Source: Nereocystis luetkeana (lineage: Eukaryota > Sar > Phaeophyceae > Laminariales > Laminariaceae). From it: DNA of 64,000 bases. The notes below the pieces were generated by a model. It made no database searches. It had not been told where the DNA came from and worked only from the letters and a program-made list of their open reading frames with translations. The translations under genes and the position numbers were made by a program. Location of the stretch: positions 1,662,940-1,726,939 of the forward strand of contig JARUPZ010000019.1 in NCBI GenBank assembly GCA_031213475.1, given 5' to 3'. Positions 191 through 62,490 of this stretch are shown one piece after another (within the stretch, counting starts at the first letter, position 1; each line of letters opens with the position of its first letter).

Positions 191-1880
191 TACAAATCAC
201 GTCGAGTGCCACCGATAAAATGTGTACGTTGAAGGAGAGATTGGTGATGTCTGAAGTGTACTTTGTATAGAGATGTGCGCGCTCCAAGCGCAGTGTAATC
301 AATGTCTGGCAATAAACAGCCCAGGATAAAGAAACTGGTTGAGACTCATTTTGATGTTTGAGGGGACTTGTTATCTTAAGAAAGGTTCATTCAGACCCTT
401 TGTGAAAATGTGTAATTACCGTGCCGTCCCGTCGTGTCGTTCAGAATGTGGGCACGTCGGCGGGCGCTGAATGAATACATCTTACCAGTATCGCCCGAAT
501 TGTAGGGTGCTTATATACATAGTTTTGGAACGTCGAGGCACATGAGGCAAATCGCCCGAAATTATTGCAGCACACGCACGTATTTTTCGGACAAACTCCT
601 TTTGAATAACTGCTGTGGCATCATTTTTGCAGAGGAATAATAAAAGGAATAAAACGCTTGGGCGAGACAGACTGGTACCAGGTATACCAGTACAGCAGTA
701 CTTGTTTGTACGTAAACTGTGCTCAAAAAGGTTGGCGTCAAAAACACCGTATCAGCTTTTATCTTCCGTTCAGAAGAGCAGAGCAGCACTCCAAGACGAG
801 GTATGCGCTATACGTAGGCGTTTTTCGTTGGCGGGCCCAAAATGTTCCGTGTTTCAGCTTCCCTTGGTCTTATTCTTCCTTCGGGCAATGCTTATTATTG
901 AGCGTTCATTCTACGGGGTCCGATTGGTAACTTCTACAAAAAAATCACGGTACCAGAACCATATTTGACATCTCCTTGTCACATCTGAAGGAAGATTTTT
1001 TTCTCGGCTCAAGCCTACCGTGAGTGGACGCCTACTCCGGACCACCGCTCCAGCAATCCATCAAGGCGACGCCCTCGCGACCTCATCACCTCCGGGACAA
1101 GGCTAGACTTCGTATCGGTGACCACCCGTAGGATTCGAACCTAAGATTACCACTATAAAAAAACCAAACGGTATATATACCTCATACTCGCGAACCGTTC
1201 GAAGAAAAACGAACGTCTATTTCTCTCTTAGCAGCCTATATAACCTTCCGCTGGACATGAGCGGCGTCCACGCACGATTTTGGTTGGCGCTCGCGTTTGT
1301 CTTCTGCTTCATGAGAACACCGTCGCTGCTTGCGAAGTCAAAAAACGGTGTAAGAGTCTGGAGGGCACACTTGAGAACGTATTATTTACAAGTCCAGCCG
1401 CACACGCCAACAATGTCCCGAGACACGAGCAAACGCGTGATATGAGCGCAGCAAGTTCAGTGCACCGATAGCACGAAAAACGAGACGCTTCTCCTTCGTG
1501 CAACGGGTTGGTTGAGAAAATCAGAGCAGTCTCGACAAACACGCAACTTCGTGACGAGATGAAAGTTAAAGCATGTATTTACCGGGGGGGGGGGGGCATT
1601 AAGCAGAAGGGACGGCAGTCGCATGCTACGGGATAGCGTAGGGATAGCATATTTTGGCCGAAACACATATCATCTGTTGCGCACCAACCGTGCAACGCGC
1701 CAAGACCCGTGTACACGACGGAAATATCAATCGATTTCCACTCTGTCATCGTCTACCCTGGTAGACATTTCCTGGTCTACAGGATCTCTCTCACCAATCA
1801 TGTTGCAGGAAGGGGTGAGAGCCGTATGATCCGCACGATGTGAGAGGGCATGTTTTCCTGAGTTGGGTCTGTACTGTAAA
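190..1880. other. Unassigned DNA, no gene seen
   Basis: Only short open frames are present (117 codons at most, at 615-968), overlapping in several frames and with no recognisable motif. One TACCAGGTA lies at 676-684 and a run of about 11 G at about 1583-1597. I see no repeat shared with the rest of the window. Confidence 0.6.
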
Positions 1881-1889
1881 TAGGCATAA

Positions 1890-2560
1890 GGGCACACCAT
1901 CTCTTAAGGGCACCGAGGATCTTATCCATCCACCATTCCCGTGTTTCCGGGTCGCTCTCGTAGTCTCTGGATGTTTTATCGGGATCCAAATATTGTCGGC
2001 TATTTTGACACGATGTGTTTGCACCTCTGACGGGTTTGTTGGGCCTATAGCGGGGAACGGGTGGCGACACGAAGTGTTTCGATCATCACAGCAGCAGGTG
2101 ATTCTCTTCGGATAGGAGGTCTACACCTCGACCTTGAGGTGCTGCAGTGGTCGAAATCGGTCGAAATTTGGGGTGCACAAAAGGAGGCCAAAAAACAACC
2201 TCCAACTGAACGTTTGGAATTCACTTGCGAACAGCTGCTATTCCTCACGGTAAACTCCAGCCCACGAGGTTGAGGAACGCTCCAGGTGGGGTGTGCGAGG
2301 GCGTCGGGTGCGTCAGATAACAGTCGTAGGCAGCCAGAAACGACTCACAACGTGTTTGCATGAACTCCAACTTACGAGCCAGCAGCACGAAAACAAAAAA
2401 CTTCCATCATCGCCAAAATGTTTCCATTCACACGCGGGAGCCTTCCTCTAGTACGATCGATGGCTGGCTACATCAACGATCAAATAATGGCTTTCATCAA
2501 AAGCTCGCTGTTCTCCAGCCAGGCAGATGTAGAGTGCAGTAGTAGCGAGGGCACTTAGCC
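1890..2560 (-). repeat. Diverged repeat J, copy 1
   Basis: This stretch is related to 30905-31690. Shared blocks include GATGTTTTATCGG, CTACACCTCGAC, GTGCTGCAGTGGTCGAAAT, GGGGTGCACAAAA and GTGTGCGAGGGCGTCGGGTG, then about 200 bp of weaker similarity. On the minus strand a frame near 2270-2370 reads ESFLAAYDCYLTHPTPSHTP, close to ESFLAAYDCRLAHPTPSHTP in the other copy. This suggests that an ancestral reading frame ran on the minus strand, but here it is broken by stops. The protein is not recognised. Confidence 0.6.
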
Positions 2561-2947
2561 GAATAAGCTACCGAAGAAGAAAATCACTTTCCCGGGAGAG
2601 GGAGTCAGTTATTTGGCCTAAAAAATTACAATAAAAAAGTCTTTAAAATAAATCACTCTTTATTCCTGTCTATTTGCAACAGGTTACTCTTCGCATATTG
2701 ATATACAGATCTTGTCTGCTAATCCCATCGTTACTCGTAGATCCAACTTGTTTATGTAGGTTGGCGAAACGCCTGTGTACCTACCTCATACGTGCGCCTA
2801 GTCGACATCAGAATCTTGAGAGATCGTCCTTGCCCTTAACTGCAGGTTAGGCTTCCACTGCAGAGGACAGCAGTGGACCATGATCTTTCTGTCCGACATT
2901 CACGCGACGGGGTGCGTTCATCGTCCTTCCGTTAAACCTGACACTCA

Positions 2948-3010
2948 TGTGTGAAGGTGTCACTATAGGGGTAAAAGATCGGTCGATCACCCAACCCAGG
3001 GTGATCCGCC
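2948..3010 (-). repeat. SINE1 head fragment
   Basis: On the minus strand this is the 5' end of SINE1: a block like ACCCTGGGTTGGGTGATCG, then CCCCTATAG and ACACCTTCACA. It is cut off before the B-box. It abuts the family D copy that starts at about 3012. Confidence 0.7.
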
Positions 3011-6944: not shown

Positions 6945-7130
6945 AGGCTCCTCACTCGAAGACTGACTTCGGCAAAAAAAAATCAAATTGCATCCCGATG
7001 ACGAATCTCATGGCCCAAGTATACAAGAAAAATCATTTTTCGAATCAAGATTGGCGTTGCGACGATTTTAGGTTGAGAACCCCCGTCATTCAGGAAACAT
7101 TTTAGCGGAAATGTGCTACCAGGTACCTCT
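6945..7130 (+). repeat. Repeat L copy 1, interrupted by TACCAGGTA
   Basis: This is related to 25766-25970. Shared order: AGGCTCCTCA, ACTGACTTC, AAATTGCATCCCG, CAAGATTGGC, CATTCAG, GTGCTACC and CCTCT. The decisive difference is at the right end. This copy reads GTGCTACCAGGTACCTCT and the other reads GTGCTACCTCT, so 7 bp are extra here and TA is duplicated. Confidence 0.8.
7117..7125. repeat. TACCAGGTA insertion with empty site in repeat L
   Basis: GTGC-TA-CCAGG-TA-CCTCT here corresponds to GTGC-TA-CCTCT at 25957-25967. The insertion duplicates TA and leaves a 5-bp core. This is one of four direct filled and empty comparisons in the window. Confidence 0.85.
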
Positions 7131-7573: not shown

Positions 7574-7599
7574 CCTACCTGGTACAGAAGAAGACTCTC

Positions 7600-8710
7600 G
7601 TCGGTAGGCCGCTTTTTTGCCGCGTCGAGCAACATCAAGCCACAAAAATATGCTCTTTATATCACAAGCGTAGCAGGTGCCTCAAGCCAACCTGCCCTCA
7701 AAAGCCGACTCCAATCAACCTAAAGACTACCCTCTCATAACCGCTCCACTTTTTCTCTCGAGCCATGCGTATAGCATAGCCGACCTGCAAAGTGTGCTCT
7801 TCTATCACAGGGTAACGTTATGTCTCAAGCCACCCGATTTCAACGCCGACTCAACCAACCTTAAAAATAGACCACGCTCTCTTTTTATCGACACGCCGTT
7901 TTTCTTTTTCTTGGGCCATGCAGTATCCCAGCTTACTGAAAAAACATGCTCTTAACGCAGCGGAACGTTGTCTCCGGCTATTCGTTTGTCGAAGCCGACT
8001 GCAATCAATCATACCGGCAAACATACTATCTTCTGTCGATCCGCCATCTTTCCCTTTAGCGATAGAATGCACCAACCGACAACGCATGCTCGCACACACC
8101 ACGGTGTGACGTTCTTTGCCTCAAGCCACCAGTTGTCGACGCCGGCTTAACCGTGCCCTTCAGGTGAAGGGACTCGAGCATGCATCAAGTTGACACCCAT
8201 CAACCCATCCACTCGCCCACAGAAGAAAAATGAACGGCGTATCTGTCCGCTTCGTTCCGTGATTCTATCGGAACCTGCTGCCCGCCGGCCAGATGGACCG
8301 CCTAGATACCGTCGACGGCTCCGCACCTCGATCTGGACGTTGATCTGAACGTTGATCTGTAGGCTGTGGCCTGTACGATGCTCTGTACGATACCCTGTAC
8401 GTGGATATGTACGTTGCCCTATTCGTCCATTGGCCCATCGACCTGTGCGCCGCGCTGTACCGGTCTGGTCGTAGCAATGAAGGACGTGTCGGTGGCTGAA
8501 ACAACCGTCCAGCTGTACCTCATATTTACGACCAGACTGATTACAATTATTGCCCTCGTTGTACGAGTGCCGCTATTCCCATACTGCAGGCGCTCCGTTC
8601 GTCTCACAGAAAGAAAACGCAAACATTTTTTCCGCTCCTTAACAGCGATGCCTATCAAATAAGACGTGCGTAGTCAACATACGCCAACCGCGCGACAATG
8701 GACGCACCGC
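7600..8710. other. Unassigned DNA, no gene seen
   Basis: The stretch at 7610-8160 contains a loose periodicity of CTCAAGCCACC...GACT...CAACGCC and TGCTCTT blocks (for example 7681, 7827, 8108), suggesting an old tandem duplication. No coding motif was recognised in any frame. Confidence 0.45.
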
Positions 8711-8714
8711 GCCC

Positions 8715-8905
8715 TCACAACGCTGTTCACGGGTCAGGTCAGGCCTCGCGAGCCACGTCGCGTCGAGCCGGGAAGGGTGACTAACCCAGCCCGACCCGAC
8801 CCGTGAGAGAGTTATAACACTTCCCGACTTGGCCCGATCCGACCCGTGAGAAATAAAAAAGTCCCGACCTGACCCGCGGGTCGGGTCAGGCCCCAGTGAA
8901 GAGCC
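8715..8905. repeat. GACCC/GGGTC pentamer-rich tract 1
   Basis: Degenerate repeats of CCCGACCCGAC type occur with spacers such as CCCGTGAGA. Similar tracts are at 12310-12450 and 13312-13345. The encoded TRP-type peptides are artefacts of the pentamer period. These may be copies of one dispersed short repeat rather than independent expansions. Confidence 0.7.
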
Positions 8906-8989
8906 CTGGTTGGTTTGCACGATACACGGGAGCCAGACATACTGCGTCAACCGGGAGAAGCAGGTTTATGGCAACCTTGTAGGCGAGCA

Positions 8990-9109: not shown

Positions 9110-9585
9110 GGCCTTAGCACACACAATTCACTTCCTCGACCGCCTCGCTTACTCACAGCACACACACGAAACACATTCCGAGATTGTATACTCCCGACGC
9201 ATCGTGGTTGGGTTGCTTGCTTCCTCCGTCCACTCCTTCATTTTTTGTTGTTGATTTTTTTGGTTCGGCTGGCATCAGCGCACGCAGAACCATATCAATA
9301 TGTTAAGAGATACGAACACCATACCACTCTGTTCCGAAAATCGAAGGGCCATTTCGTCGTCAAGTCAAACCACAAAATTGTCCTTATATTCACAAACATA
9401 GTGGCAACCACTCGGACTGGGAATATTAGGATACTTGTATATCCACACAAGACTCCCAAAAGGTGACTATATTCTCAGCCAGAATGATACGGTGTACACC
9501 AATGTAACACAATCGATAAACTTCGAAGAAGGAAAATGAGCGAAGCATATATGTACGCGCGTTTCAAAGCGTATGCCCAACCAAA
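9110..9585. other. Unassigned DNA, no gene seen
   Basis: A 119-codon open frame at 9107-9466 has no recognisable domain, and its composition matches the neighbouring non-coding DNA. Nothing else was recognised. Confidence 0.5.
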
Positions 9586-10127: not shown

Positions 10128-10534
10128 CGCTACTAAGCCCTCCGGCCTCATGTACTAAGGCAACAAAAATATTCAGAAGTGCGTTAGAATAGCTCCCTCC
10201 CCCCCTGCTGTGCGAAACAAGCGAGGGCATGCAACACTCGCGCGTACGGGGAACACTACCGACCTCCTCGTCTCGCGTTTCTTGTAAGGATCACGAGAAT
10301 ACCTGGTACGAAACAAGAAGATGGGGGAAAAATCTGGGACAAACTCCCTTTTTATTTGTAGAGGTTTATCCTCTTTGCGATGAGCGACTAATTAATGATC
10401 AATGTGTTGTACATTCAATTAATTCAGCTTCTGGACCGACCAAAAAGTGCTCCGCTCCCAGACACTAACTACTACAGATACGGTGCGTCAGATAGACACG
10501 CTTCTCGCCACACGTCACAGACCCTCTTTTCATG

Positions 10535-11366: not shown

Positions 11367-11513
11367 TATATATCAGGTGGATATACGGATATGTAAAATA
11401 ATACCTGGTATTTTTCAATAATTCATCATTTTTATGTTGTTCGGCATTTTTGTTATATTCAACTTTTTGCTGTTTTACAATGTTTTCTAGAACTTGACTT
11501 TTGTTTTTAACTC

Positions 11514-14609: not shown

Positions 14610-15440
14610 TAGCACAGCGGTTGACAAGTTGTGGAGAAGCAGTGCGCGGTTTTCTGTCACCCCCCCCAACCCCACGCACAGCCCATTTCGTTTTATTTCT
14701 CTTGACGGAATCATCCTATTTTTTTCACAGATACTACGAGTATAAAGCGGAAAGAAAAACTGGCACAGAGAATTTTTTTTTGTCTGTGTTCCTTTTGGTT
14801 TCGTTTTTGTTCCTGTCTCAGATCTCACGTCTCGGTGAGGTTGTTCACGGCCGTCGACTTGTGGATGATCAGCAGCGATTCGTCCAGGGCTATCACGTTT
14901 CGGCTCTGGCGGCTCCGTTCTCCAGCCATCTGTTTGTTGGGTCACCGTGTCATCGAAACACACCATCATCACGCGAGTCGCAGCGAAAGACAGACATACA
15001 CACAAATATAAGAAGCAGGTGGAGAAGTTAGTACGCGGGAACATAAAAAACCAGAAGCAAATACGTGTGTGCGGTGTGTAAACAAAAGAAGAATAGATAG
15101 CTCTTGGATTCACCGTGGGTTCTGAATACTATGCCTCCCTGTGATACACCGTACAACAGTATTAATACTAACAGCGCGCCTGTGGCCCGACACCATTAGA
15201 TAGATGTGCTCCACAAGCTCCAACGTTGATCGCACATGAAATTTTATCCCGAAGAAGGAGAGGAAGAATAAGAGGAAGAACAGAAAGAAGAAGAAGAACA
15301 TCAAAGGGAGAGACCAAAACAAAGCGGAGACCTACTGCTGCTGTACGCGCTGTGTGAGCAAAGTCGAAAAAGTCTACCTGGTACTAAATTACTGTGCATA
15401 CCTCACCTTCTGTACGTACCTACTGTACTGTACGTACTCC
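14610..15440. other. Unassigned DNA, no gene seen
   Basis: Two overlapping frames of 148 codons (+) and 169 codons (-) at 14585-15113 show no known domain and run through simple T and C tracts. A coding role is possible but unsupported. Confidence 0.45.
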
Positions 15441-17329: not shown

Positions 17330-18645
17330 AATACTGCTGTGGTTCATGGCTACTGCGGCTGCTCCTCCTGCCGGTGTTACGCCGCTGCTCTGGTGGTGCT
17401 GCTATGTACATGCTACTACTGATGTGCTGTTCTACTGCTTGCTGCTGCTCTTGCTGTGTCTGCGATATGTTTCTGCTGCTGACCCCCGTGATGGCTATTA
17501 TTGTTGAAGCCACCCCGTCTCGGTGATGTGTTTCTGCATCTTGAGCTGAAAGACTGATTCATCTGCTTCGGAAGCTGTACGAGTGCCGTCTCGTAATTGA
17601 TATTTTGTTTGGCATCTCGGCGGAGGTCTCGTGCCAGCGTAGTTTCCGTACGATACGTACCTGTACGCTATGCTGCTGCTGCTGCTGCTGCTGCTAGCTG
17701 CTGCTGAGTTTCCTGCACCAACGCAATCGCCGGCGCTTCGTACTGTCGATCTGCTCGATCGACCGCTGCTGCTCAACTAACTGTTTAGTGGCTATCAGCA
17801 TACGAAGTATACAGTACGGACGCCGAGCGTCTCGTACGTCGTACTATGCAGTGCTGCTTGCTGCTGTACGAACGAGCTATGTGTTGTTGTGCCCGATGGC
17901 GGATGTCAATGTTTTTTTTTTCTTGTGTTTCCAGTGTTTTCATTCTGTTCATTCAAAATTGTTTTTTTATAATGCACCCCTTGGCAGTAATGTCGCACTG
18001 CTGACGGCCTCGAGTTGCATACCCGTACGCCTTCAGCCATCACGGGTAGTATGCGCGGAGCCGCCGGCGGGCGTCAGCCCACCACGGCGAATACATATCT
18101 GGTATAATATATCCTTACCTGGTATATACTCGTACAGTACCCTTGTGTCCTACATGATACGGTGGGTGCCCGCAATTAAAAACTTGATAGTAGTGAGAAA
18201 AATAGGCTCGGATCGCGGCACGAACACAATAAAATTTACAGTAGGTAAAAAAACACAGCTCAGCAGTGGACCAAAACTCTAAATCCTCTACAATAAATAG
18301 GAGGATTAGGTCAAGGTCAGGAAGAAAAAAAGACATTGAGCCTGGACACCAAATTGACGTGTCTCTTATCATCGGCGGGCGCCCACTGCTGCTGCAGTGT
18401 AGCGCACGCCTGCTCGACAAATCTTACCGGACGACTACTACTATTAATAATATCAAATAAGTATATACCTTGTTGTTCAAAATTGGCAAAACCTTCCCGT
18501 TCTAAAAAAGATGAAAAAAAATGTGAGCGCTGAAGGAAAAAAGCGATCGCATCAAAAATCACCCCTTTGTGCGAGCTCAATGCTCTTTGGCGGGAAATAA
18601 CTTGTCGTATATACACATATATATCTGTTCTTCGTTTTCTGTTTT
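17330..18645. other. CTG/CAG-rich stretch and unassigned DNA
   Basis: Interrupted CTG trinucleotides run from about 17335 to 17880, with a pure (CTG)8 at about 17671-17694. The rest has no recognisable gene. Frames at 17788-18282 and 18317-18856 are short and pass through simple sequence. Confidence 0.5.
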
Positions 18646-19759: not shown

Positions 19760-19776
19760 GGGCAAACTGTCATATA

Positions 19777-20361
19777 CCAGTCTGGTCGGAAATATAAGCC
19801 TGATTTGAGAATAGCGAAAGTGGTACTTTAAGGACTACCTGGTACCTGGTATGAATTAGAGGTCATGCTTTCGAGCCCCAGGGAGCTCACCTGTTCACCT
19901 TTTGTTTTTCACAAAACAAAAAAAGTTCCATTTTGTTTTTTGTGTGTATTCACTCACAACATGAGTACACCTCGGACCAACATTTGTATTTCCACCGGTT
20001 GAAGGGCAATTCATTATTACAATGATCCCAAAGGCAGTTATTTACATGGGCAAAAGGACCTAAAAAACCATAGTAGAACCAAGTGTAAAAAAACTCGAAT
20101 TTTAGCGCCTGTACGAGCTCCGTAAAAACACAAATATTCCTGACCGGGAAAATGGCGCAAAATTGCGCGAAATAGGGGGGGGACGATAACTGAACATCCC
20201 CGGGCCTACCAATGGATTCCTCGATAACATGGCCTCTCTGGATGGTGTTACGTACGATTGTAAAGGACTCGTAGGTTTGTGATGAACTCTATCGCTTAAT
20301 TTCCAAATCAGGCATATATTTCGGTTTTTCCAAATCAGGCTTATATTTTCGACCGGACTGG
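19777..20361. mobile_element. 585-bp TIR element with CCAG/CTGG ends, TA-flanked
   Basis: The left terminus at 19777 reads CCAGTCTGGTCGGAAATATA then AGCCTGATTT. The right terminus is its inverse with two mismatches, ending GGACTGG at 20361. TA lies immediately outside each end (19775-19776 and 20362-20363), as expected for a TA-duplicating, Tc1/mariner-type insertion. The interior has no transposase frame, so the element is non-autonomous, and it holds two overlapping TACCTGGTA motifs at 19836-19851. A second copy of part of the right TIR (TTCCAAATCAGGCATATATTTC) starts near 20302. Confidence 0.8.
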
Positions 20362-20383
20362 TATATATATATCAGTCGCCGAA

Positions 20384-21640: not shown

Positions 21641-21670
21641 CATAATAATAATAATAATAATGATAATAAA

Positions 21671-21711
<41 letters not shown>

Positions 21712-21831
21712 TATTAATAATAATAAGTTAATAATATGTTAATAATATTAATAATATTAATAATATTAATAATATTAATAATGATAATAATAATAAAAAT
21801 GACAACAATAATAATAATAGTAATAATAATG

Positions 21832-21874
<43 letters not shown>

Positions 21875-21906
21875 TGACAACAATAATAATAATAGTAATA
21901 ATAATG

Positions 21907-21945
<39 letters not shown>

Positions 21946-21957
21946 GTAATAATATGT
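21637..21957. repeat. (AAT)n microsatellite, about 320 bp
   Basis: Nearly pure AAT with ATT, GAT and AAATGACAAC interruptions. ATGACAACAATAATAATA occurs twice. It starts directly after the GGATGGCAAGCATA tail of the F2 copy, so it very likely grew from the retrotransposon tail. The poly-Leu and poly-Ile frames are artefacts. Confidence 0.95.
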
Positions 21958-30450: not shown

Positions 30451-30568
30451 GGCTCCTCCTCGCCACCATAGCTATACAGCAGTGAGTACGGACTGCACAG
30501 CACAGCATCATTAAGTAAAGCAACCCGATGAAAGGTCCAAAAACCTATACACCCGGTAGACGCTACTA

Positions 30569-30673: not shown

Positions 30674-30765
30674 TATCACGAAAATGTTGTGTACGTACGG
30701 CGGCAAGTACTGCTATTAATAATTGCCATCAACAGGTAATAATGGCATTCGAACGATGTTCGGTT

Positions 30766-37542: not shown

Positions 37543-38335
37543 GGCGGTCTAGCGGTCCGGTGGATAGATTCTGAGGCCGAGAGGTTTTTTTACGGCAGAA
37601 TCGGTTGAGGCGTCGGCAAATGGCGCGTGAGAAATGATATCGCCCCTTTTGTATGCAGCCTCCCCCCCCCCCCTGGGATACTGCTGTGCTGCTGCTGTGT
37701 TATGATACACTTGTACCTGAGGGTATTACCTATTGTACGCTTACTATATACCATGTAATATACGTACTTCTTCGAGTAATATACCAGGACTATTAATAAT
37801 ATGAGTTTCGTTGTGTTGTTGGTGTTATCGGTTTACTACTATTTAATGTCAATGATGTAATATCATTGACACACACACCTGGAATATTTTGATGTAATAT
37901 CATTGACACACACACCTGGAATATTTTACACCTGGTACCTGGCACATGCATACAAATTACCAGCAGAGGTATACGTACGGCTGCACGCTAATTATTAAAT
38001 AGTCTTCATGCTGCACAGACTCCGACAATACTAGAAGAGCCTTGTATCTACTACCACGGTATATATTTATAACTGGTATTTATTACACCTATATATACTA
38101 ATACTTCAGTGGTACCTGTTACGAGCAGTGTGCCCACTTGGCAGTTAGTTGGCACCCCGACCCTTCAAAACAAAGCGTCCAGAGACATTTCATGTTCGTA
38201 TATATATACCAGGTATACGATATCTTTGGGTAGTAGGTGGTCCTCGAGCTCACTCCGCTTCAATTCTTACCGAAGCGCATACATACATATATACTCGTAT
38301 CATACCGACACGTAACGTAAAAAGGCGTTTCTTGC
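37075..38335. other. Simple-sequence rich DNA, no gene seen
   Basis: (GGT)n at 37328-37380, (GTCT)n at 37507-37542, and a 37-bp tandem duplication TGATGTAATATCATTGACAC... at 37852-37926 with CACACACCTGGAATATTTT. No coding evidence. Confidence 0.65.
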
Positions 38336-38400: not shown

Positions 38401-38755
38401 ATACAAAAATTGAATACCAGGTATACTATTAACACTATTATTATTGTGTATACTATTAATATTATTGATAACGCATACCTGGTACCTGATATTAACGATG
38501 TTTATTCGGTAATATTGCCGCCCTTCCAAATTCGAAGGTAATAAGGTCTCGGTTATTATTAATAGGAGACATTCAGTCTATTTTTTAAATATAATTTTGT
38601 TGAGTGTTCAGGCTTGACACTTTCCGTGTTTTAAGTCATCATTGGATTCTACTAATTTACTAAAACCCTTGTATACGTATGATTGGAAAAGAGCTGCGCG
38701 TTGCCAATAATTGACAAAATGAATCTTAATCTCATATTCGATGATCGACGAGCAG

Positions 38756-39085: not shown

Positions 39086-39385
39086 CAATACCTGGTATAA
39101 ATAAAAAATATATACCTGGTATATACCTACCGGTACGTACCTCGTTCGTATGTAGACACTCACGCAGAACCGGTCGGTAGAGACAGCAGAACAGCAGTCT
39201 ACGCGAATATTCACATTATTTTAAGAGGGCAGAGAGCTCTGACAGAGGAGGAGATGAAGTACCCCCCCCCCCCGCCACCCTCTCTCTGCTGGGCCGGGAT
39301 TGTTTCCGATTGATTTTCGAAGGGAGAAACACCAGCCAGCAAAACGAAAAGCGTTGTACCTTCTTTCTGTCGTACCAGGTATATG

Positions 39386-40655: not shown

Positions 40656-40689
40656 GATCTTCAACATATATACCAGGTACCAAGTAAGT

Positions 40690-41355: not shown

Positions 41356-41504
41356 TTGTACTGCTGTGTAATATTAATAGAATAATTTAAATACCTGGTA
41401 CCTGGTACCAGGTAAGCTGTATTATCATACGCAGGCGCACGTATACTTGTAGGCACTTACTTACTTATGAAACGGTACCATCGCTTTTCATTTTCCCTTC
41501 TCCA

Positions 41505-42224: not shown

Positions 42225-42535
42225 TTTACTGTGAGTGGGCAGCGTGTTTTTGGTAGATGCTCGAGGGGAGGGGTTGGTGTCGTTTTTTGGTGGATGACGT
42301 GGAGGGGTGGATGTTGGTTGTAGGATCCTTCATGATGAGCGTCACATCAGTTTTGACTTGTTGTCGTATGTATGTGATGCGGCAGCCGCGCTTTTGTTCT
42401 GGAAAGTTCTTCTCTTCTTTCTGATACCTGGTAGTCTTTTTTAGAACAACACTACTACGAGTACGCATTGATTGTCGGATGGCAAGCATATTATATAATA
42501 TTAATAGTAGAAATAATAATAATAATAATAATACT
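42225..42535 (+). mobile_element. Family F2 with (AAT)n tail, carrying two short insertions
   Basis: It runs from GTGGGCAGCGTGTTTTTGGT to GATTGTCGGATGGCAAGCAT plus an AAT array at 42506-42533. TACCTGGTA (42425-42433) sits where the 21.4-kb copy has TA, and TACGAGTA (42456-42463) sits in the stretch that other copies show as AACACTACACATTG. Confidence 0.85.
42425..42433. repeat. TACCTGGTA insertion with empty site in F2
   Basis: TTTCTGA-TACCTGGTA-GTCTTTTT here; TTTCTGT-TA-GACTTTTT at 21581-21597. The 33.19-kb copy reads CTGTCCCTTGGTCTTTT, which may be a decayed version of the inserted state. Confidence 0.85.
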
Positions 42536-45240: not shown

Positions 45241-45631
45241 TTACCTATTATGACAAGAACGCATTACATATACTTCGAAGTAGATAGGGCTCACTTGGTG
45301 GGGGGCGCTTCAAAATTACACCGAATAAATTGTACCTGGTACGTACGTAGTTGGTAGCAGCCGGTCGATGCAGAATAGTCGGTGCAGAATAGCGTATTGG
45401 TCTGTATGAATACGCTCAAGGTTTTTTCACCACGAATGCTGGTGTCACAGCAGTGAGGGTCTAAGGTTTGCTCAGATACATAATCAAGAAAGCGGTTCTA
45501 GCTGGTGGCGTGCCCATATATATAGTAAATCTACCAGTAATAATGTTGGGATGAGGGGTGGCGCGTCATGGTGGAGGCACCAACAGCTGCAGCATCAACA
45601 TACCGGCCAACACCGCCCCCCTACAGCGACC

Positions 45632-46046
<415 letters not shown>

Positions 46047-46049: not shown

Positions 46050-47080
46050 TGCATCAAATGGGTCCCCTCTTCTTGAGCGCTTCCACTCTCGAACTGACAA
46101 CGTGATATTCGTCCAAATACTCACGGTATGTATGTGCGTATTGATGGACTATCTTTTCCACCATCTCCCTCTCTCGTTAGTTGGGCGTTCTACCTCTTCT
46201 ATCTGTTGTTGCTGCCACTGTAGTGGCCCCTCTCTGGTGCCGCCGGTTGACCAGTGCCGGCAGCCCGCTATATGTAGTGCCTGTGGAATCGCTGGTACAT
46301 AATATGAGGTCAACCAGTGTGGCAGTGCGCGGAGTATATATTGTCGGTTGCCGCTATTCGCTATTACAGCAGTCAGTGCCGGTATTGTTGACTGTGCCGC
46401 ATACCGGCACTATAGAGGGACCCATACTGTATGTACAACAAGTAGACGTATTACACCAACCGATCGTTTGACAGGCAGCCTTACTAGAGCATTCGGTAGA
46501 TGCACCGGCCTACAGTGTAGGCCCGCCAATAAGAAAAAGTGCCCAATAAGAACATAATGCTGACTTTTTGGAGAACTCTAAGAAATCGGGTTAATTAAGA
46601 AAAACGGGTCATTGGTGAACTCTACACTAAAATTTAATACTACGAGGTAGGTACCAGGTATATATGTTAGCATATGGTCAAGGTTGTTTGAAGATAGCGC
46701 TCCAATAAGAATCTCAGGCTTGCCCAGATTATTAGGTGTTTCTTGTTGACGGGCCCATACTGTAATAATGTGTGGCATTCATTTGGCATGCCAAGAAGAG
46801 TGGGGGAAATAATAGGCAGGGAGAGGTCGAGACAGCGAGTATTGCACGACGAGAGCGGAACATTCTGGGTGTTTATCTCTCAAGTACGTGCTGAATTCCA
46901 AGCAATTGTAAATACAGCACAGAAGTAAGTACTACCGATAGATCTATTTTATCTATGGGGTCACGGCTGCGTGGTCAAGTATAAGTACCAGGTATGGGGT
47001 TACAGCTACACGGCGGTAAAGTGCGCGGATCACCACACCAGACTGAAGGCTGTCTGCATGTAAGTACGTAGGTAGGTATG
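46050..47080. other. Unassigned DNA, no gene seen
   Basis: No motif recognised. Positions 46200-46450 contain repeated CCGGCA/TGCCGG and CAGTGCC words (46250, 46324, 46374), a weak sign of local duplication. Confidence 0.45.
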
Positions 47081-47085
47081 TGTGT

Positions 47086-47242
47086 GTATGTATGTATGTA
47101 TGTATGTATGTATGTATGTATGTATGTATGTATGTATGTATGTATGTATGTATGTATGTATGTATGTATGTATGTATGTATGTATGTATGTATGTATGTA
47201 TGTATGTATGTATGTATGTATGTATGTATGTATGTATGTATG
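47086..47242. repeat. (GTAT)n microsatellite, about 39 units
   Basis: A pure tetranucleotide over about 157 bp, ending directly at repeat N. Confidence 0.97.
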
Positions 47243-47489: not shown

Positions 47490-48500
47490 CGTACGTACAT
47501 ATCCGAGGTACGAAGGGTAATCACTTTCCTCTTTTGACAGGCTTGCTGTATGTGCTTCTGTACGAAAGAGAAAGCACAGCACGGCACAGCAGCACCGCAA
47601 AAAACAATGAAAATGAAACCGAAAAAATTGGGAAGAAAAAAAATCCCCCGTCCCCTCATGAAATCATTTTCTGTCTGATTGGAACACCTTGCACTGGTAA
47701 AAAACAAAACAAAAAAAACGTACAACATAGCTTCTCTCTCAGCCTCATACGCCGCCCGCCCCCCTCGCGACCCCATCGCCACCGATTTGGTCCGGGTAAA
47801 GTTTTCTCTACTCTCTGCCACAGTGAGCTCCGTCGCCCGCCCCGGGTTAATCCCGATGCTCACTGTGGCCATCGTTCGCCAGCTCAACAATGTTGTTATT
47901 CAGACCGGGTAACTCCCCCTGTGATTTTCAGCCCGGTCGCACAAATGAGCACCGCTTGAATGTTATCTCGCGATCAATGCCGAACGACCCTTATAACTCG
48001 TACGTACCCTATAAAAAAACACAATTGGGGGCCAGACAGAGCCCATTCATGCATCCCTCGTGTCTCGACGCACACGCCACGCCTAGGGACGAAGGCGTCG
48101 ACCGCGCTCCTTCCAACCCCCCCTCTACCCGCCAGCACCCGCTGACACCCGCGACGGCGCCGGGCTCACCCGCGGTGCCGTGCTCGGAGTACACACACGC
48201 ACACGAAACGAAAGAAGAAAAAAGGAAGAAAGCACCGAGAGTGCCCAGAAAAAGAGAGGAAACAAAGACCCGCAGGAAAGGCCCGGCAAGGAATGAAGGG
48301 AGGCGGTTTCGAAGTGGGAGCTCTGAGAGGCCAGGGATGTACCAACCGAGCACGCTCAGAGAGTGAGATCTAAGTAAGTGGTTCTATGTATTTATGCATG
48401 TACCAGGTATTATGCGTGTATGCTTCAAGAGACAAGACGAGCGATCCTCTGCCAGTGCGCCCAATATACCGTACGTGTATACGTTCAGTATTAGCTTTCG
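47490..48500. other. GC-rich unassigned region with open frames
   Basis: Overlapping frames at 47447-47959 (+), 47468-47890 (-) and 47890-48366 (+) are 140-170 codons long. The last ends in a Lys/Arg-rich stretch (ETKEEKRKKAPRVPRKREE) from low-complexity purine sequence. No domain was recognised. It is the most gene-like stretch in the window by length and base composition, but support is weak. Confidence 0.3.
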
Positions 48501-48859: not shown

Positions 48860-51330
48860 ATAAAGCTGACACACCCACATACATCCCCTACTGGGAACGA
48901 TTTCTGAGTCGAGATCTTCTCCGAAACAAGAACAAGGGCACGCACAACAACAGCACACAACAACAAAGAAGGTTTTGTTTTGGAAGAGCTCTCGTCGTCG
49001 AGAGATTGTTATTATGGGCAGATCGCTCGGCGTTGGTTTGCACTCATCACCACTCCGTTCTCGAGCCTCCCTGGAAAATTGTCCGACGGGGGGGGGGGGG
49101 GGGGGGTTGATCGTGCCGTAGTCTACACCGGTACTCTGATACCAGTACCTGGTATTGTCTACGGTCCAGTCTTCCATCAATATAGTCTAGTTACGCACTG
49201 TAGACTTACCGTAGTAACTTATTATGTATTCTCACCTGTGTCCGTTCCTCCGTGGTGGAGTGGTGGAGGTCCGAAGAGTGGTGGAGCGTCCAAATAGACC
49301 AGACCACGGCTTCGAATCGCCCCAGCTAGCGCCCACCATCCCACCACCACCAGCATCACCATCACAACAACCATCGCTGCAGCAGCTGCAGGTTTATTTT
49401 GGAGCCACCATGACGACCCACGACCACGAATGACCTCCCTGAGAGTCTTGACATGACAACAAACAGTCACAAACAACTGGAAGAACGAACGAATGAACGA
49501 ACGAACGAACGAACGAACGAACGAATGAACGCACAACGTGCTCCGCGTTCGCTCCTCGCTCCGTCCCTGCGTCGCCGAGCCAATCTCTCTCTTCATCTCC
49601 TTCTCTCTCTCACTCTCTTCTATTCTCCATCCTGCTTTTTCTTCAAAGTGTCTTTCGTCTCGTGTCGGCGGGGTGCAGCCCGCGACCTGTGGCTAACACC
49701 TCGAGTGCGATGCTGGCAGTTAGCGACAGCAAAGAAAGGCTGGTGGCTTGTCGTCATCATTATGATTATTGCTTGTACGTAGTACTACTATGCCACTACT
49801 GATAGAGGAATGATAGATCACGACCGGTCGTAAGCGGACAAAGATCGGCCGCTCCTACTCACTATCCGAAGCAACAACAGTTGCTATACACACATACTGG
49901 TACCAGGTACAGTAGTAGCAGCTACGTAGTGTATTCTTTATATGCTGAGGCGAAGTACAACTATAAATATGTACTTCAATATATACCACCTTCATTATTA
50001 AGATATTACTATACATTTAATATTAGTAGTTTTGACTTCTCGTCTGTACCTACCTGTTAGTTCGTAGATGTAGAGTAGAATACTAGTAGAATATAATATC
50101 TGTACATGGATAACACATACTGCTGTTGTGATAGATAACCAAGCCATAGGGCTTGCGCCCGATGTATGTCCGAAACCACCGACCGCCCGTGTTAATTCGT
50201 CACGATTGATTTGTAACATTTTATTCGCGTTCTCGAGATCGCGATACTACAATGAATGATTACACAACCAACCCTTGCCAGTTTTATTTGTTGATTCTTA
50301 TTTCAACTATTTAACAACAATGGTGGGTGTTACGATCAGCAGGCGGAATACTTTGTATTGTAACCCTGGACAGGTTTGCCCATTAAGTCGGTACTCGTTG
50401 GCACTCACGTATGTTGCTTGCTTCGAGATGGAAGAAGAGCAGCTATATTCCTTCCGTGAACGGGGAGACCGAGACCAAGCTCGTGCCTCTCTCTGGAAAA
50501 CCCCTGGTTTTCCACCTAAGATACGCCTTCCAAGCACTGCGAATACGATCCCAGTGCCTGAACCCAGGTGATTACCGGGCTTTCAGCCTTATTCAAGGCA
50601 GTATCATCTCATGGGAATGAGAAGCGTGACAGATGGCGGTCCTTTGTTTTCACTGTTGTTAATACTGTGTTCCAACAATAGTCTTGGGATCGTATTCACT
50701 ATTTATTTATCGATGCCCGTCAGCACATAAACCTTTTATAAGGGCTGGGTAGGTATGGGTTGGTGGGTGTGGATTGGTGTGAAGGTAGGTGGGGTGCTGG
50801 GTCCGTCGGATGGTGCGTGGGCTGGTTGGTTCCGCCATCACCTACAACTCACCACCCCACCACCAACAACAGTTTGATGCCAAGCGATGCGCGTCAGCAC
50901 AAAAACTTTGCGTGGTGGATGGGTGGACGGGGGGACGGAGGCCGTACTATCATTTTTCTTGCATGCCTTAGTCATTTAGCAATTGTGGCCACGCATCGCT
51001 TTCGAGACGGAGCTCCGGGGGGAGGGGGGGGGGGTACAAATAATGCCAATCAATGTATTTCTTGACCACTTCACCAATTGAAAAACAATAGTAATAGCAA
51101 CACCACCTACCTGTGAAAAACAAATATAATCAGCCAGCCACAACAACACCATGTATGTATGTGAAAAAATAACACACACTACAACAAAACACAGCAACTG
51201 GCTCGGGGGGGCGGAGGGAAACGATCAACAACATACAGCATCTACAAGTAAGTGCAAATGAAATTCCTGAACCACACACTTGTCACACAGTTGACAACAC
51301 CACAACAAGTTTTGCAAATCGAATGTTAAT
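48860..51330. other. Unassigned DNA with simple repeats
   Basis: G run at 49088-49107; (AACG)n at 49485-49526; AT-rich 49910-50110. Frames at 50275-50620 have no known domain. Positions 50961-51035 resemble 52138-52208 (CTTTCGAG-SGGAGC...GGGGGGAG), flanking the LINE copy at 51.3-52.0 kb. Confidence 0.5.
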
Positions 51331-52300: not shown

Positions 52301-52304
52301 ACTA

Positions 52305-52409
52305 TTACGGGGGACCATAGTTAATAGGACCTATGGTATAGATAAAAACCTATATATTTAACCATTTTTACTAACAATATTTGGTCCTATTAACTATGGT
52401 CCCCCGTAA
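52305..52409. mobile_element. TTACGGGGGACC MITE, copy 10 (near consensus)
   Basis: 105 bp, perfect ends, inner arms AATAGGACC and GGTCCTATT paired, TA on both sides. A good reference for the family. Confidence 0.93.
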
Positions 52410-52414
52410 TAGGT

Positions 52415-54535
52415 AGTAGCGAACGAAAAACCAATTTGCTGCTATTAACTACTGCATGAACAGCAGTAGCATACAACAGTAGTAGTATGCTACCTGCTGC
52501 CAGGTACCAGGTATTTATTCAATGTAACACCAGTAGTCTGTATCCTCTAGTCGCTGCTCAGCAATACAGGGTTACCTGATACAACGTAGCTTGTAGTAGT
52601 AGAGTACACAGACAGTACCCCTCTAGGAGTAGTGATACGCTCGGGATCACAGTTCCCATGTATGTGATGATACAGACACTGGACGGCAGTATCAGATACG
52701 TACGTGCCGTTAGCCATCATCTGTCGTTACTGGAAAAATGGAATCATGTGGAATTGTGCGTATAGCTTATGTTAAATAAAGATCGGGATCCTCGAGAGAT
52801 CCGCTAGCGACCAATAGAGGTGCTTTACAAGGCCAGTAAGTGTCATGGTGCCTCACCGTCGAGGAGGGCACAGGGATGTCGATGCTGGCCAGGGCACGTT
52901 CCTTCTCGGGCAAGTTTCTCCTTGTCGCTTATCTCGTGGATATATGCACTGAGACGTTTCCGTTACTTCATACAAAGTGCACTACCGTAGATATTAACGC
53001 GTAAAGAATCAGTGCAAGGTATGCCACGGTTGTTGCGTTACCAGACGCGTCGTAGGCTGTTGTGCGAGGTGTATATTGCTGTATGAGATAATCAAGATCG
53101 CCAGAAGAGCAGAGGAGCGTTTGCACGCCCACTCTTTCACTCAGCTTAACTTTTGCTCATTATCATCAACCTCGGTTTTGAACACAAACTATTCAATCTA
53201 GCATTGGCCAGGAGTTGCCAAACACTATCTTGTCTCTTCTATTGTAACGTTCGTACAAGTTTGCCCCACGGCGACTAACGCGCTCATTTTCAACTTCGGG
53301 CTGTATTCTATCCAGTCATCGGCAAGTGGGTCTGCTCACATACAACACCTGCTATGCGCTGGTATACAGGCTATACCATATCCCTCTATAACCACCAGGT
53401 GCTTTGGGATATCTGCCAATCAATGTCCACGTCGCTGATCATCATGCGAATATATCTATCAACATGCGTACGTGTCCGTGCAGTCCCCACTTCCCTGGTT
53501 TGAAGCCAACATGTTCATCTCAAACCCACATACCCTGGTACAATGCAGCGTAACATGTTAATCTCAAACCCACATACATCGCGAGGTCGTGCGACAAATT
53601 GACGGCGTTTTTTCCTTCGGCCTGATAGCGACGAACACAGGAACAACCTACAGAGCCCTGGGAGCTCTACCCTTCGAGGCCTCGTTTCTATCTGGTGCGG
53701 CTGTGATACTCTGCGTCTTTGTTTTCGGAGGAAGTAGTTGCTGCCAGAGTTCCCGAAATGCAAAACTTACCAGCGCTGCCTGTATACCGCTGCTGTCTTG
53801 TATGATTCCTGTGGCACATACTTCAGTTCCTACTGAATAAAATACAGTAGTTACGACCGGAACAATCCCAGGTGGTTCGAGCACCCAACACGACCAAGCT
53901 CGACGAACTCAACACGGATTTCGACGCAAGCACAGGAGGACGGAGGCACAGATAAGAGACCGTCTTAGGCACCGTCAGTGTCGTAATCGGCGACGATTTG
54001 ATCACGCGCGAGGAACAAAAGCCCCGAACGCACTCCCTTCTTACACGGGAAGAAACGAATTTTTGCTCTATTATTGGTACACTTTGCTTGAATTTTCTGG
54101 GAACTTTCTCGGGACCACACAGCGGCCCACGACACACATGACCCTTGTACTCGTATGTCATGCAGAGATGCCATTTCGAGAGCTTTGCGCTCGAACGGGC
54201 GTCAGGCTCCCCGTTATAACTAACAGAGTACTACTGCCAAAAAGGTTGACTATATGTGCTGCCATTGGCCATCGATACCGGCACCGTCGATGGCGGTTTT
54301 GATACGCCATGAATTGCGGTACTGTACACCTCTTCGTATCATACCGCCAAGGTCTCTCTGTCCGCCCTCTCTGAGCGAGTGGTCGCACGCGGGAAACGCG
54401 CACCACGCGTAGCAAAGAAATCTTCCATGAACAAGGAAACGTAGGTTGAGCTACCAGGTAGGTAGTATGGAACGGGCCAGACATTTATTTACTACTACAG
54501 CAGTATACTGTATGCGCAGGTCATCGCTGTTTCTG
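52415..54535. other. Unassigned DNA, no gene seen
   Basis: A 25-bp direct repeat ACATGTT-ATCTCAAACCCAC occurs at 53508 and 53552; the first copy is followed by TACCCTGGTA. Positions 52835-52930 match part of the 43-44 kb duplication. Short frames at 53515-54484 have no known domain. Confidence 0.5.
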
Positions 54536-58050: not shown

Positions 58051-58513
58051 TGTACCTGATTTTGGCTCAAACGGATTAGGTATACCTGATTTTGGCGTTT
58101 ACCCTATTTGTTTCAGCCCTTGATACGAGCGCACTGATATACTACTGTACTTTTCACACTGGTATAATACAGCGTAGAACTACCCTTCACCGCTTAGTCA
58201 CAAAAGGTTACGTTCATACCTGGTATATACCTGATATATATGCATAATGCGCCAGACAGCTCATCATCATTCTTTCGTACCTGGTACCATGTATTACAGC
58301 AGTGTTACAGTAGTACACAGGGTTTTCGACACTGTCTACAACAACAGCAGTACGTACACATATATTTCGTATCATGTATGCATGGTTGACGCACGCACGG
58401 TACATACAGGTACGATGCACAAGACGAAGAGGCATACTACTTGCACTCGTATACTCGAAAAATATCCCTAAATCAGTTGGGTAGTTGTTGGGTACTTGGA
58501 CAGGGTTATAGAG

Positions 58514-59249: not shown

Positions 59250-60185
59250 TGACACGGTCAAAATGTGTTGCTACCGGCAAATTTATCTCGTCGATGTCAC
59301 AGCAGCAAGCAGCAACCTACCTGTCCACGCATCCTTTGGTGTTATGTACAGCTACTATAGTACAGTCAGTATATCAGCAGTTAGTTTGGAGTACGACATA
59401 GTGCGCGAAAGGGCAACCCGAAAATACCGACTACCTGGTAGTATATACGAGTAAGTACACAGCCAGCATGATGGCGACTTTCAATAATACTCAACGTAAC
59501 CGCTAGTAATATATATATATCTATAGGGTGTGATTGAATTCTGTATTGTTGCTCTATTATATATAGCAGACACCCTATTAAAGAGCAATAATAGATGACC
59601 CACGCTGTTTTTTTTCCCGGCGCGAAAATTGTACCAATATACGCATAATAGATCACAGCCACCCTGGGATGGGTTTTCCGATTCATTCGATGTTTCTAAA
59701 TAACATGGGCGGCTCGCGAAACGACTAGTGGCTTTTTTGGAAAGGCCTTGGGATCGTTCCATACGAGACGCATCGCTCGGATGGGATCAATATTACGTTG
59801 AAGGCATGGCAGTATGGGTTCCTAGGGCCCGAGTGCTGAAATAAATGCAGGTTTGCCTCTTCTTGGCAATGAGTGATCACTCGCAGACGCGTGTTTGGTT
59901 TTAAGCCTGCGGGCGAGGCCTTCCTCTAACATGTTTGTAAACCACAGGGGTGAGTGAAAAAATAAAAGCCGACAATCCACCATCCATTTCAAGACCCTGG
60001 CAGGAGATGTGGGCTGCACTAAAACCAAGAAAAAACATTTTCTGAAAAAATTAAAACGTTTTTCGTAAATTCGTCCAGAAATCCCATACCTACTGGTGGT
60101 TTGTTTTTCATTGTTGGCTTTTTAGTAGTGTAGCGTCGTTTTTGTTTTTCGTCTCGCGCCTTGTGTTAACCGGTAAACATAAGTA
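59250..60185. other. Unassigned DNA, no gene seen
   Basis: TATAGGGTGT at 59522 and ACACCCTATTA at 59571 form a loose inverted pair. Nothing else recognised. Confidence 0.5.
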
Positions 60186-60189
60186 CGTG

Positions 60190-60335
60190 CATACCTAGGC
60201 GCGACGAAAAATAAAGGCACGTACCGGGGGGGAGAAGGGTGGACACCTGTGACCACGGTTTGTCCAGAAGCTTTCGTTGAGGGTATACCTCCCACGAGTA
60301 AGGCTGGAAAGTAGAATTGATGTTGAAAAGAAAAA
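60190..60335 (+). repeat. SINE3 body and tail
   Basis: AAATAAAGGCACGTACCGGG, GTGACCACGGTTTGTCCAGA, GGTATACCTCCCACGAGTAA, GGCTGGAAAGTAGAATTGAT. Confidence 0.8.
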
Positions 60336-60339
60336 TGAA

Positions 60340-62490
60340 TAAATAAAAATACGAATGTACGCATGTAAGTATAGCAGATACACATAGCATAATACTCGTG
60401 CTACGAGAAAGCGGGCGATCGACCCAGCGACGGCGCGACGGAAGTGAAAACGACCCAACGCCGCCGCCGATGGTTTCCTCGTCGTATCAGCGTGCGGTAG
60501 TCACAACATCATCTACATCTGCAGTACGAAGTCGTATTGATTCCAGATCCTGATGGAGGTTTTGACAGGGTCAGGTGATTGTGGGAAATATTTTCAGATG
60601 CGCTGTAAAATGAATCATCGCCACGGAACCAGTGAGTGGGTATCGCGTGGCGCCACGGCTCCTCATTTCCGGGTGCACCGGATTTGCCTTTATATCTGCA
60701 ATGTATGCACTTCATCTCCATGAAGTTGGAGCACAGCAGCAGCAGCAAGTGCCGGTAGTATTGAACGTGGCGTCGTGAGACGAGCAACGGATATCACATG
60801 ATGATAACAAAAGCGGCGTGATGTAACATACCTGGTATGGTGTAGCGCGCCTGCGGGTTGTGCCTAAAAGTAAGCCACTCGTCTTGTACGACTTCGTATA
60901 CCTGGTGCGCATGTACGTTATACCAGTATCACAGCGAATGGTCGTCGAAGCGCTGGGCATAGCGCTGCAGGAACACCGCTAAAATGACGAGGACTGACTT
61001 CTGAATTTACTAATAAATACGAGTATTATTACGCTTATTTCGATGTCTGCAGTGCCCACGCTGCCTCTGCTATGTAGCACGAGGTCGAGTAGTCAACGTG
61101 TAGGGGCTCCGGGTTCGGCCCCAGTACCGCTCGCTCTACATATATGCTCCGTCAATGATCTGCCGGCTTGCAAGGACACAACGCGATAAATAACCAACAT
61201 TTTACCGGCCGTGATCGACGTAACAGCACTAACTGCAGAGTACTACTGTAGTGCCGCAGTGGGTTTTCTGTATCAACTACGGGTGAGTACGTATGCGTAC
61301 GAGTACGCGATATGAGTCTCGGTCTGCCGGAGCCTCTGGCTCATAACAAGTACCAGGTACCTGGTAGGTCGCAGCACCAAGTCAGTCGTTTCTAGGACAA
61401 TTCACCGACTACTTGCGGTCCTCGGGTGTGTGTCATCAAGCCTAGGGTGAGATAATAACGCGTACCTAGACGCACGTCTACATACAGGTGCGTCAGGCCG
61501 AACGACAGCAGTAGTGATGGCTCCAGCATATTTATGCGGCGGAACCCACCCACACCCATATATATCAGGGAACGAACGCTGACATGGCGGGATCACTCTC
61601 CGACCAAGACGCGGATTCTCGTAAACACACTACCAACAGCGCAGCGCGTACGTACGTGCCGTGTTATCCAGCATCCATGGATGTGAATGCCATCAACTTT
61701 CCTCTCAGAGGGTGCGGTCACAATCACAGCAAGCACACCCTCCTCTTGTTTCACCACGAGGAGAAAAAATAAAATAAATACTTCGAAGTACGATTTTATT
61801 TTATTTTCGGAAACAAACGTGACAACATTACGAAGTCAGCCGCCGAGGGACGCAATCAACGAAGCTCATCCGCGAACTTAATACACACCAGGTAGCAAGC
61901 AAGTCTTCACCTTCCTACTGTAGACTCCCGTGCCATACCGATAACCACCACGCCAGGCCTCAGGTGAAGAGCCGTGGTTGGAGACGTACAAGCGGAGAGA
62001 TTACAAACGTCGAAGCGTTACCTATTGAGCCGCATAGATTGCGGTGCACAGCAGTGTACAGTACGAAATCATTCCGCATAATATATGTTTCTACACTGCC
62101 TTCTGCTGTCTGTTGTCTCCTGTCTGCTGTAAATACTCGTACCTCGGACTCTCGCACTCCCTACCGACGAGTAGTCGCAGTTAGTGCTGGCGTGTGGGCG
62201 TTGAAATGCATACGTATCTTCTACAGAATATTGTGTTGTGCAGTCATTACGCACTGATTATACGAGTATACGAGTCATATCTTAGCTCCTCAGTTTGGAT
62301 ATTCGGGTAAATGCAATATATATGGGGAAGGTTTACATTTGCATATCATACCTTTCTTTCGAGTAAGTATGTCATCGTACACTCCAGGTACGGGCTTAAA
62401 ACTTGCTAAGCGGTACTACACGCACATTTCAATGAACGCCCACAGTTTCTTTTCGATTTACTTCGATTTCTTGCAGTAGTAGTAGTAATT
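60340..62490. other. Unassigned DNA, no gene seen
   Basis: All frames are under 100 codons and none has a recognised domain. Several TA-flanked short motifs occur (TACGAGTA, TACCAGGTACCTGGTA). Confidence 0.5.

Follow-up and report, generated by a model that had tools for sequence, protein, structure and literature searches.

How does a nine-base word come to stand dozens of times in a stretch of DNA where about one copy would be expected? The question is raised by a 64,000-nucleotide stretch of the Nereocystis luetkeana genome (contig JARUPZ010000019.1, positions 1,662,940 to 1,726,939), referred to here as the window. It contains 47 exact copies of the palindrome TACCWGGTA (W being A or T), spanning 676 to 61366, against 0.89 expected under an order-2 Markov model fitted to the window, while the reversed word ATGGWCCAT does not occur in it. 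We propose that TACCWGGTA is very probably the excision scar, or footprint, of a Tc1/mariner-like family of cut-and-paste transposons, and use the word scar for each copy in what follows. A preliminary description of the window had put the count at 46 over the same range, one copy too few, and had suggested mass excision scars of a TA-targeting transposon; that suggestion is supported here by empty TA sites, by open scans for inserts, by matching target preferences and by an element found at a scar-bearing TA.

Abundance and age of the scars

The excess is not confined to the window. In the genome as a whole (eukaryotic, 465,085,209 bases in 1,987 contigs, the window included) TACCWGGTA is found at 182,395 sites and the reversed-word control at 1,744, a difference of about 105-fold, so that the massive over-representation first claimed from the window is confirmed. 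Because the word is its own reverse complement, forward and reverse counts refer to the same sites. The genome-wide density is one scar per 2.5 kb. Finer analyses used a 264-kb sample, consisting of the window and 20 other stretches of 10 kb, with 124 exact scars; these are denser in the window (47 in 64 kb) than in the other stretches (77 in 200 kb, 2,500 bases of which are N).

In the same sample there are 149 single-substitution neighbours of the scar, compared with 33 for the reversed word, any one neighbour word occurring 0-13 times. Substituted scars, together with some other joints, are therefore about as common as intact ones. This implies that scars of different ages have been inherited, and that 182,395 is a lower bound.

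Ten of the 47 window copies lie in four head-to-tail arrays of period 7, with both orientations mixed in three of the four. These are a double array at 19836-19851, within a 589-bp CCAGTCTGG element, a triple array at 34275-34297, within a miniature inverted-repeat transposable element (the TTACGGGGG MITE), and two further arrays of exact words, triple at 41392-41414 and double at 61351-61366. The other copies stand outside these arrays. Those at 7117-7125, 33855-33863 and 42425-42433 are treated below, and the rest are exact words at 676-684, 7576-7584, 10300-10308, 11402-11410, 15375-15383, 18116-18124, 25139-25147, 25304-25312, 30362-30370, 32280-32288, 33743-33751, 35118-35126, 35363-35371, 36488-36496, 36908-36916, 38207-38215, 38415-38423, 38476-38484, 39089-39097, 39113-39121, 39373-39381, 40671-40679, 45333-45341, 46652-46660, 46986-46994, 48401-48409, 49146-49154, 49901-49909, 52505-52513, 54452-54460, 58217-58225, 58278-58286, 59432-59440 and 60829-60837.

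Empty sites and open insert scans

If the scar is an insertion at TA, homologous copies of the host sequence should show a single TA at the same place. Each scar was replaced by TA and its flanks were aligned to the 264-kb sample, the 124 scars giving 110 merged sites after four further merged sites near sequence ends had been dropped. Homologous copies spanning the site were found for nine of the 110. Single-TA copies are present at eight of these, and the only copy of the ninth reads GA. This is scoring of filled against empty sites of the kind that the preliminary description had called for, and the four loci at which it had already seen TA become TA-CCWGG-TA are all among the nine and all check out. 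At 7117 there is one host copy (25818-25979), with a single TA, and at 33855 TA is found in three aligned copies. For the array at 34275, where an empty TA is the rule in other copies, nine other copies in the window align, none of them with a scar and seven reading CCTATAT; in the larger sample two copies have a scar one TA away, in one case with a substitution. The weakest case is 42425, where TA stands in three copies and TG in one, all of them diverged.

An unbiased catalogue of gaps in repeat alignments gives the same insert: the commonest 7-base insertion is a rotation of CCAGGTA, in four places. Among 6-base inserts, a rotation of TTAATA is among the commonest, in five places, tied with ACGACT.

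The whole genome was then scanned with patterns that accept any short insert, the reversed-pattern control giving zero in the three scans that follow. At a repeat site TTTTTAC-TA-ACAATATT there are 11,822 exact empty copies and 428 copies with 2-20 extra bases plus TA; among 100 listed inserts of the 428, TTAA alone accounts for 45 and CAG for 7, and CCTGG appears in three, each time adjoining a TTAA-like insert. A second site of the same repeat, a MITE, reads CC-TATATA-TTTAACC and has 844 copies with an insert; of the 100 of these listed, 77 contain one or more exact TACCWGGTA, in both orientations, and 6 contain two. The remaining listed inserts include CCGG, CTGG, CCAG, CCTAGG, CCAAGG, CCAGGG, CTTCGAAG and CTCCG(G)AG. 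At one TA in an unrelated repeat, that of the 33855 site, all eight inserts found when 3-20 bases were allowed are CCWGG, four in each orientation; two of the eight come from small contigs, which may represent haplotype duplicates.

The rarer inserts CTTCGAAG, CTCCGGAG and CTCCGAG, found genome-wide between two TAs of the TTACGGGGG MITE, look like scars of further families.

These results bear on whether the scars were simply inherited within the consensus sequences of repeats, or grew as 7-base tandem repeats. The period-7 arrays would fit such an origin, as would the MITE site filled 844 times, where several sample copies carry scars. It is contradicted by the empty TA at eight of nine testable sites, by the mixed orientation of three of the four window arrays, by the isolation of 91 of the 124 sample copies, and by the unrelated repeat in which each orientation is seen four times. 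In the sample, homologues with a scar are limited to one MITE site, where the scar is at the same TA or the next one, and so at most that site could reflect descent. There, L014 holds the counterpart of the scar at L026 7056, in the opposite orientation and with one substitution, and the window array at 34275 lies one TA from both. Inheritance or tandem growth is in our judgement very unlikely indeed. The earlier claim that the word arrived independently in different host repeats is upheld by the empty sites, and needs qualification for the one MITE site with scar-bearing homologues.

Target preference around the scars

Of the 124 sample scars, 33 in or adjoining arrays were dropped, and the flanks of the 91 isolated ones were read outward from either TA. 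The first base is a pyrimidine (Y) in 81% and A in 3%, against a background of 19% for A. T is found in 40% at +3 and in 50% at +6 (background 25%, p 1e-13), and A or T in 83% at +7 (p 4e-13). The signal is weak at +8 and +9, and there is none from +11 outward. A symmetric signature of this kind, in the bases beyond the insert, is the mark of an integration complex.

A very numerous short palindrome could also have a binding or signalling role and be conserved or multiplied by selection, in the manner of the HIP1 word. We find this hardly credible, since here unrelated repeats have gained the word by an insertion that duplicates TA, and the flanks outside it bear an integration-type target signature; a word that arises or stays without insertion is not what is seen.

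Candidate source elements

A scan of the 264 kb for inverted ends that both start with CCAG found, besides pairs of scars, a single element. This lies in the window at 19775-20363 on the plus strand, is 589 bp long with TA at each end and inverted ends CCAGTCTGGTCGGAAATATAAG and CCAGTCCGGTCGAAAATATAAG, and represents the candidate source family. A source with ends starting CCAGG had also been considered; the scan of the 264 kb for it returned only scar pairs, and it was ends starting CCAGTCTGG that revealed the source.

Searched behind a free prefix, the end of this element matches the genome exactly 66 times, against 1 in the control, and 54 of these matches have distinct flanks. When up to three mismatches are allowed, TACCAGTCTGGNCGNAAATATAAG has 3,764 genome matches, against 1 in the reversed control. 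In 100 listed matches CCA is nearly always kept and the fourth base is G, C or A, and six opposite-end pairs stand 575-691 bases apart. Terminal inverted repeats are thus present in the window element and in these pairs, and also at L032-L034. For every such end there are about 48 exact scars, or about 97 for every element at two ends each, a ratio in which older elements are undercounted: looser matching gives 124 scars to 14 ends in the sample, some of the latter by chance.

Shorter relatives with CCA-type ends, 83-101 bp long, are found in the window and at other loci. The window holds three on the plus strand, all relatives of the CCA..TCTGG ends: an 83-bp hairpin at 27064-27146 (fold z -5.9), whose terminal TAs have decayed, and two decayed 85-bp copies at 8458-8542 (a hairpin, fold z -3.3) and 9322-9406 (fold z only -1.6), each with one end lacking TA. 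Five such copies were folded, with z of -5.9, -5.2 and -3.3, and of -1.6 and -1.1 for two decayed ones. They have the features of MITEs, being short, with inverted ends and a hairpin, the hairpin being poor in two of the five.

At +1 to +4, +6 and +7 the flanks of the 54 distinct ends are like those of the scars: 46 have Y at +1 (p 1e-4), 23 have T at +6 (p 0.004) and 39 have A or T at +7 (p 0.009). Expressed as enrichment over all TA sites, the profiles of scars and of 50 ends (the 54 minus four adjoining a scar) correlate with r = 0.73, compared with a maximum of 0.51 in 1,000 draws of random TA flanks. Under the scar model the 54 ends score 23.1 bits, compared with at most -14.6 in 2,000 draws.

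The most direct connection comes from a trio of states at one site. At L036 a TTACGGGGG MITE is interrupted by a 603-base CCAGTCTGG element, with ...ataaaaacc-TA on one side and TA-tatatttaacc on the other. The element stands between two TAs where other copies have one, so that the TA target is duplicated. The same TA is empty in other sample copies, and most of the listed CCWGG scars lie there. At two other loci examined alongside L036 the element is outside this MITE.

A further connection is provided by the scars as targets. Read outward, the scar is CCWGGTA, which fits the preferred C at +1, T at +6 and A at +7. An exact scar directly adjoins three of the 54 element ends, compared with 0.8% of TA sites (p 0.009); a fourth end adjoins a scar with one mismatch, a type outside that 0.8% background. 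The scar therefore offers a favourable half-site, which helps to explain the arrays.

Elsewhere in the genome, on contig C9 (5355023-5819717), one element end recurs five times with the same flanks, at intervals of 113.6-123.7 kb, and suggests a giant tandem segment or a duplication in the assembly. C7 (9604770-9793623) and C16 (2011430-2288778), also outside the window, hold CCACTCTGG ends in runs whose flanks are repeated, at spacings of roughly 34-82 kb, possibly further large tandem segments.

A second pair of scar and element

A parallel case is found in the same genome. The word TATTAATA occurs at 93,112 genome sites and its reversed form at 10,689, or about 82,000 above control. Of its 77 sample sites, 62 were used for the flank profile and 67 for the correlation, microsatellite-like ones having been dropped. 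These scars share the target TAC-TA-GTA with a MITE of the form TA-TTACGGGGGACC...GGTCCCCCGTAA-TA (41 ends with TTACGGGGGACC). In scars and in the TTACGGGGG MITE respectively, G is found at +1 in 51 and 61%, T at +2 in 60 and 78%, and A at +3 in 61 and 66%, and the two flank profiles correlate with r = 0.75 (null maximum 0.67), while cross-correlations between the CCWGG and TATTAATA systems are negative. One TTACGGGGG MITE copy folds at z -10.2. A copy of the MITE that is the source of this scar, one of several in the window, lies at 30567-30675 on the plus strand, and a further TTACGGGGG MITE copy at 52303-52411, also on the plus strand. The TATTAATA scars and the TTACGGGGG MITE form a scar and element pair parallel to the first; the TTA/TAA ends of the MITE would give TTAA if joined with a 2-base overlap.

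TACAGTA/TACTGTA is also in excess in the 264-kb sample (103 against 43.6 expected), lacks the CCWGG signature, and is a possible third class of scar. Its possible source, Tc1-like elements with inverted ends starting CAGTG and TA flanks, is seen in the window at 46511-46764 and in L016 at 8695-8906. The words ATCTAGAT and CAGCTAGCTG are also abundant, the former partly within a local tandem repeat.

With both pairs in hand, one may ask whether the scars exist only in the tissue that was sequenced, germ-line elements at TAs having been removed during development in the way of the internal eliminated sequences of ciliates. TA-bounded elements, uniform joints and a large excess of scars over elements would all follow from this. 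However, the nested scars (the 10 of 47 in arrays) and the elements lying directly on scars (three exact, the fourth with one mismatch) imply that scars predate later insertions. Substituted scars are common, and TCAA and TTGA are found beside TTAA, which also speaks against it. We regard developmental removal as extremely unlikely.

Proposed excision joints and mechanism

Besides CCWGG, several minor joints between two TAs are in excess in the 264-kb sample and score on the CCWGG target signature: CCGG (14 against 4.2 expected, z 5.2), CCATGG (3 against 0.4, z 3.6), CCAG/CTGG (30 against 13.8, z 5.2) and CCAGGG/CCCTGG (11 against 0.7, z 3.9). They carry this signature and not that of TTAA.

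The alternative put forward with the preliminary description was a dedicated micro-insertion mechanism. Such a mechanism, or an autonomous micro-element, would add CCAGGTA, 7 bases, at TA sites without any larger element. The uniformity of the modal insert at the MITE site (77 of the 100 listed) is in its favour, and recognisable elements are far fewer than scars. It becomes less likely because the minor joints share the target signature and resemble products of variable end joining. A full element is moreover present at the same TA, the target preference matches that of a real element family, and a second element and scar pair runs in parallel. Micro-insertion is thus very unlikely.

Returning to excision, the scars appear from their sequence to be the first bases of the element ends, and, with the shared target signature and the trio at one site, have the look of a footprint of terminal bases left between two TAs. 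The following scheme would produce them. The element would insert at TA and duplicate it, giving TA - CCA...TGG - TA. On excision the non-transferred strand would be cut about 3 bases inside each end, leaving CCA on each flank as a 3' overhang. The overhangs would be joined by a one-base A/A overlap, and resolution of the mismatch to A or T would give TA-CC(A/T)GG-TA; full retention would give CCATGG, loss of both A would give CCGG, and other joints would give CCAG/CTGG and CCAGGG. The source would be TA-flanked inverted-repeat elements together with hairpin MITEs, of about 83-101 bp and 575-691 bp, with ends CCA[G/C/A]TCTGGNCGNAAATATAAG and a preference for TA flanked in both directions by Y at +1, T at +6 and A/T at +7. 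Scars would supply such half-sites and draw further insertions, building up arrays. The scheme builds on the counts, empty sites, insert spectra, target match and same-site trio; the overhang length, the joining steps and the transposase are what we infer. A 4-base CCAG overhang is a simpler fit to the joint, but does not fit the CCAC and CCAA ends, and is ranked second.

Several observations weigh against the excision reading. The fourth base of the ends varies (CCAG, CCAC, CCAA), and the one-base A/A overlap consequently has to be assumed. Plain CCA/TGG shows no enrichment in the 264-kb sample (44 against 38.1, z 1.6); CCAAGG stays at the expected level (1 against 0.8), and CCTAGG has no copy there. 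Nor does the signature score single out scars: CATACA, the most enriched TA-X-TA word (45 against 0.5 expected) and probably a microsatellite, reaches z 12.8, and GGACC, which is present in the MITE, reaches z 4.9. The profile of the ends departs from that of the scars at +5, +8 and +9. Part of the 844 filled copies may be a MITE subfamily that carries the scar by descent, because other sample copies at this hot spot carry scars, one of them substituted; the result from the unrelated repeat is independent of that question. Finally, the searches tied no transposase to the CCWGG or TATTAATA family.

In these searches PF01359 and PF13358 had no match in the genome, and PF01359 had none in the control genomes either. 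PF03184 gave 28 genome matches, and none of the six loci read has a matching end pair around the gene. L031 and L041 each show one weak CCA-like end, and L030 a copy of the TTACGGGGG MITE.

DDE_1 gene fragments at L029-L031, L040 and L041, with no TA-flanked inverted-end pair surrounding them in the stretch read, are possibly domesticated transposases.

Other features of the window

A Pfam scan of ten open reading frames from the sample matched one reverse transcriptase and one mitochondrial carrier, the other eight having no match, and a tRNA and Rfam search of the window gave no match. Retroelement reading frames of the genome may point to a brown alga. Long microsatellites are found in the window at 21642-21954, (ATA)104, at 45633-46046, (CTA)138, and at 47058-47242, (ATGT)47, and a 9-base TAGATGATC array lies at 28225-28437.

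Implications

For DNA transposons, excision, choice of target and the result of repair are usually measured in assays or at single loci. Here very many past events, including those of vanished elements, would be readable from one genome. It is quite possible, although we stop short of calling it probable, that the elements follow a hit-and-run regime, in which they are almost always lost after insertion so that nearly only scars stay, and in which scars seed themselves into arrays. If so, the genome can be read like an odometer of transposition, targets and repair outcomes included. The scars also suggest that repeat annotation based on counting elements can miss most cut-and-paste activity. 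The 7-base insertions add up to about 1.3 Mb (182,395 x 7), and each would be expected to shift the reading frame of any coding exon struck.

Comparison with known systems

HIP1 of cyanobacteria is a very abundant short palindrome, and the scar resembles it in this respect. To our knowledge HIP1 is not an insertion with target duplication, whereas the scar is a TA-duplicating insertion.

The footprints of Mos1, Tc1 and Sleeping Beauty consist of terminal bases between two TAs and are quasi-palindromic, with a central A/T ambiguity. The scars agree with Tc1/mariner footprints in the TA target, in the terminal bases left between TAs, and in the quasi-palindrome with its central A/T ambiguity, while the modal joint has 5 bases here against the 3 familiar from Tc1/mariner. 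The preliminary description had known of no system like this one; its scale is indeed unusual, but footprints of the Tc1/mariner type were already known.

In the parts of a Mos1 study drawn on here (PMC2642840), footprints formed in vivo are said to agree with a 5' break that lies two or three bases within the element, and mariner MITEs 80-120 bp long are reported to transpose in vitro. Stowaway MITEs of the Triticeae are also similar, being flanked by TA, leaving several short footprints of terminal fragments and re-inserting beside a used site; the portions of that report consulted (PMC1925063) concern one intron locus with five putative footprints and no genome-wide class of scar. In the brown alga Ectocarpus 11,912 Mariner-Tc1 copies in 17 families, mostly non-autonomous, have been described, in a paper whose main text does not contain the words footprint or excision (PMC12477816). 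Among the matches listed in a search of the open-licence literature, there is no report of a genome-wide scar class. The evidence thus supports a known, Tc1/mariner-like mechanism on a genome-wide scale not found in print: where the Tc1/mariner footprints in the published material used here come from single loci or assays, one footprint is present 182,395 times in this one genome.

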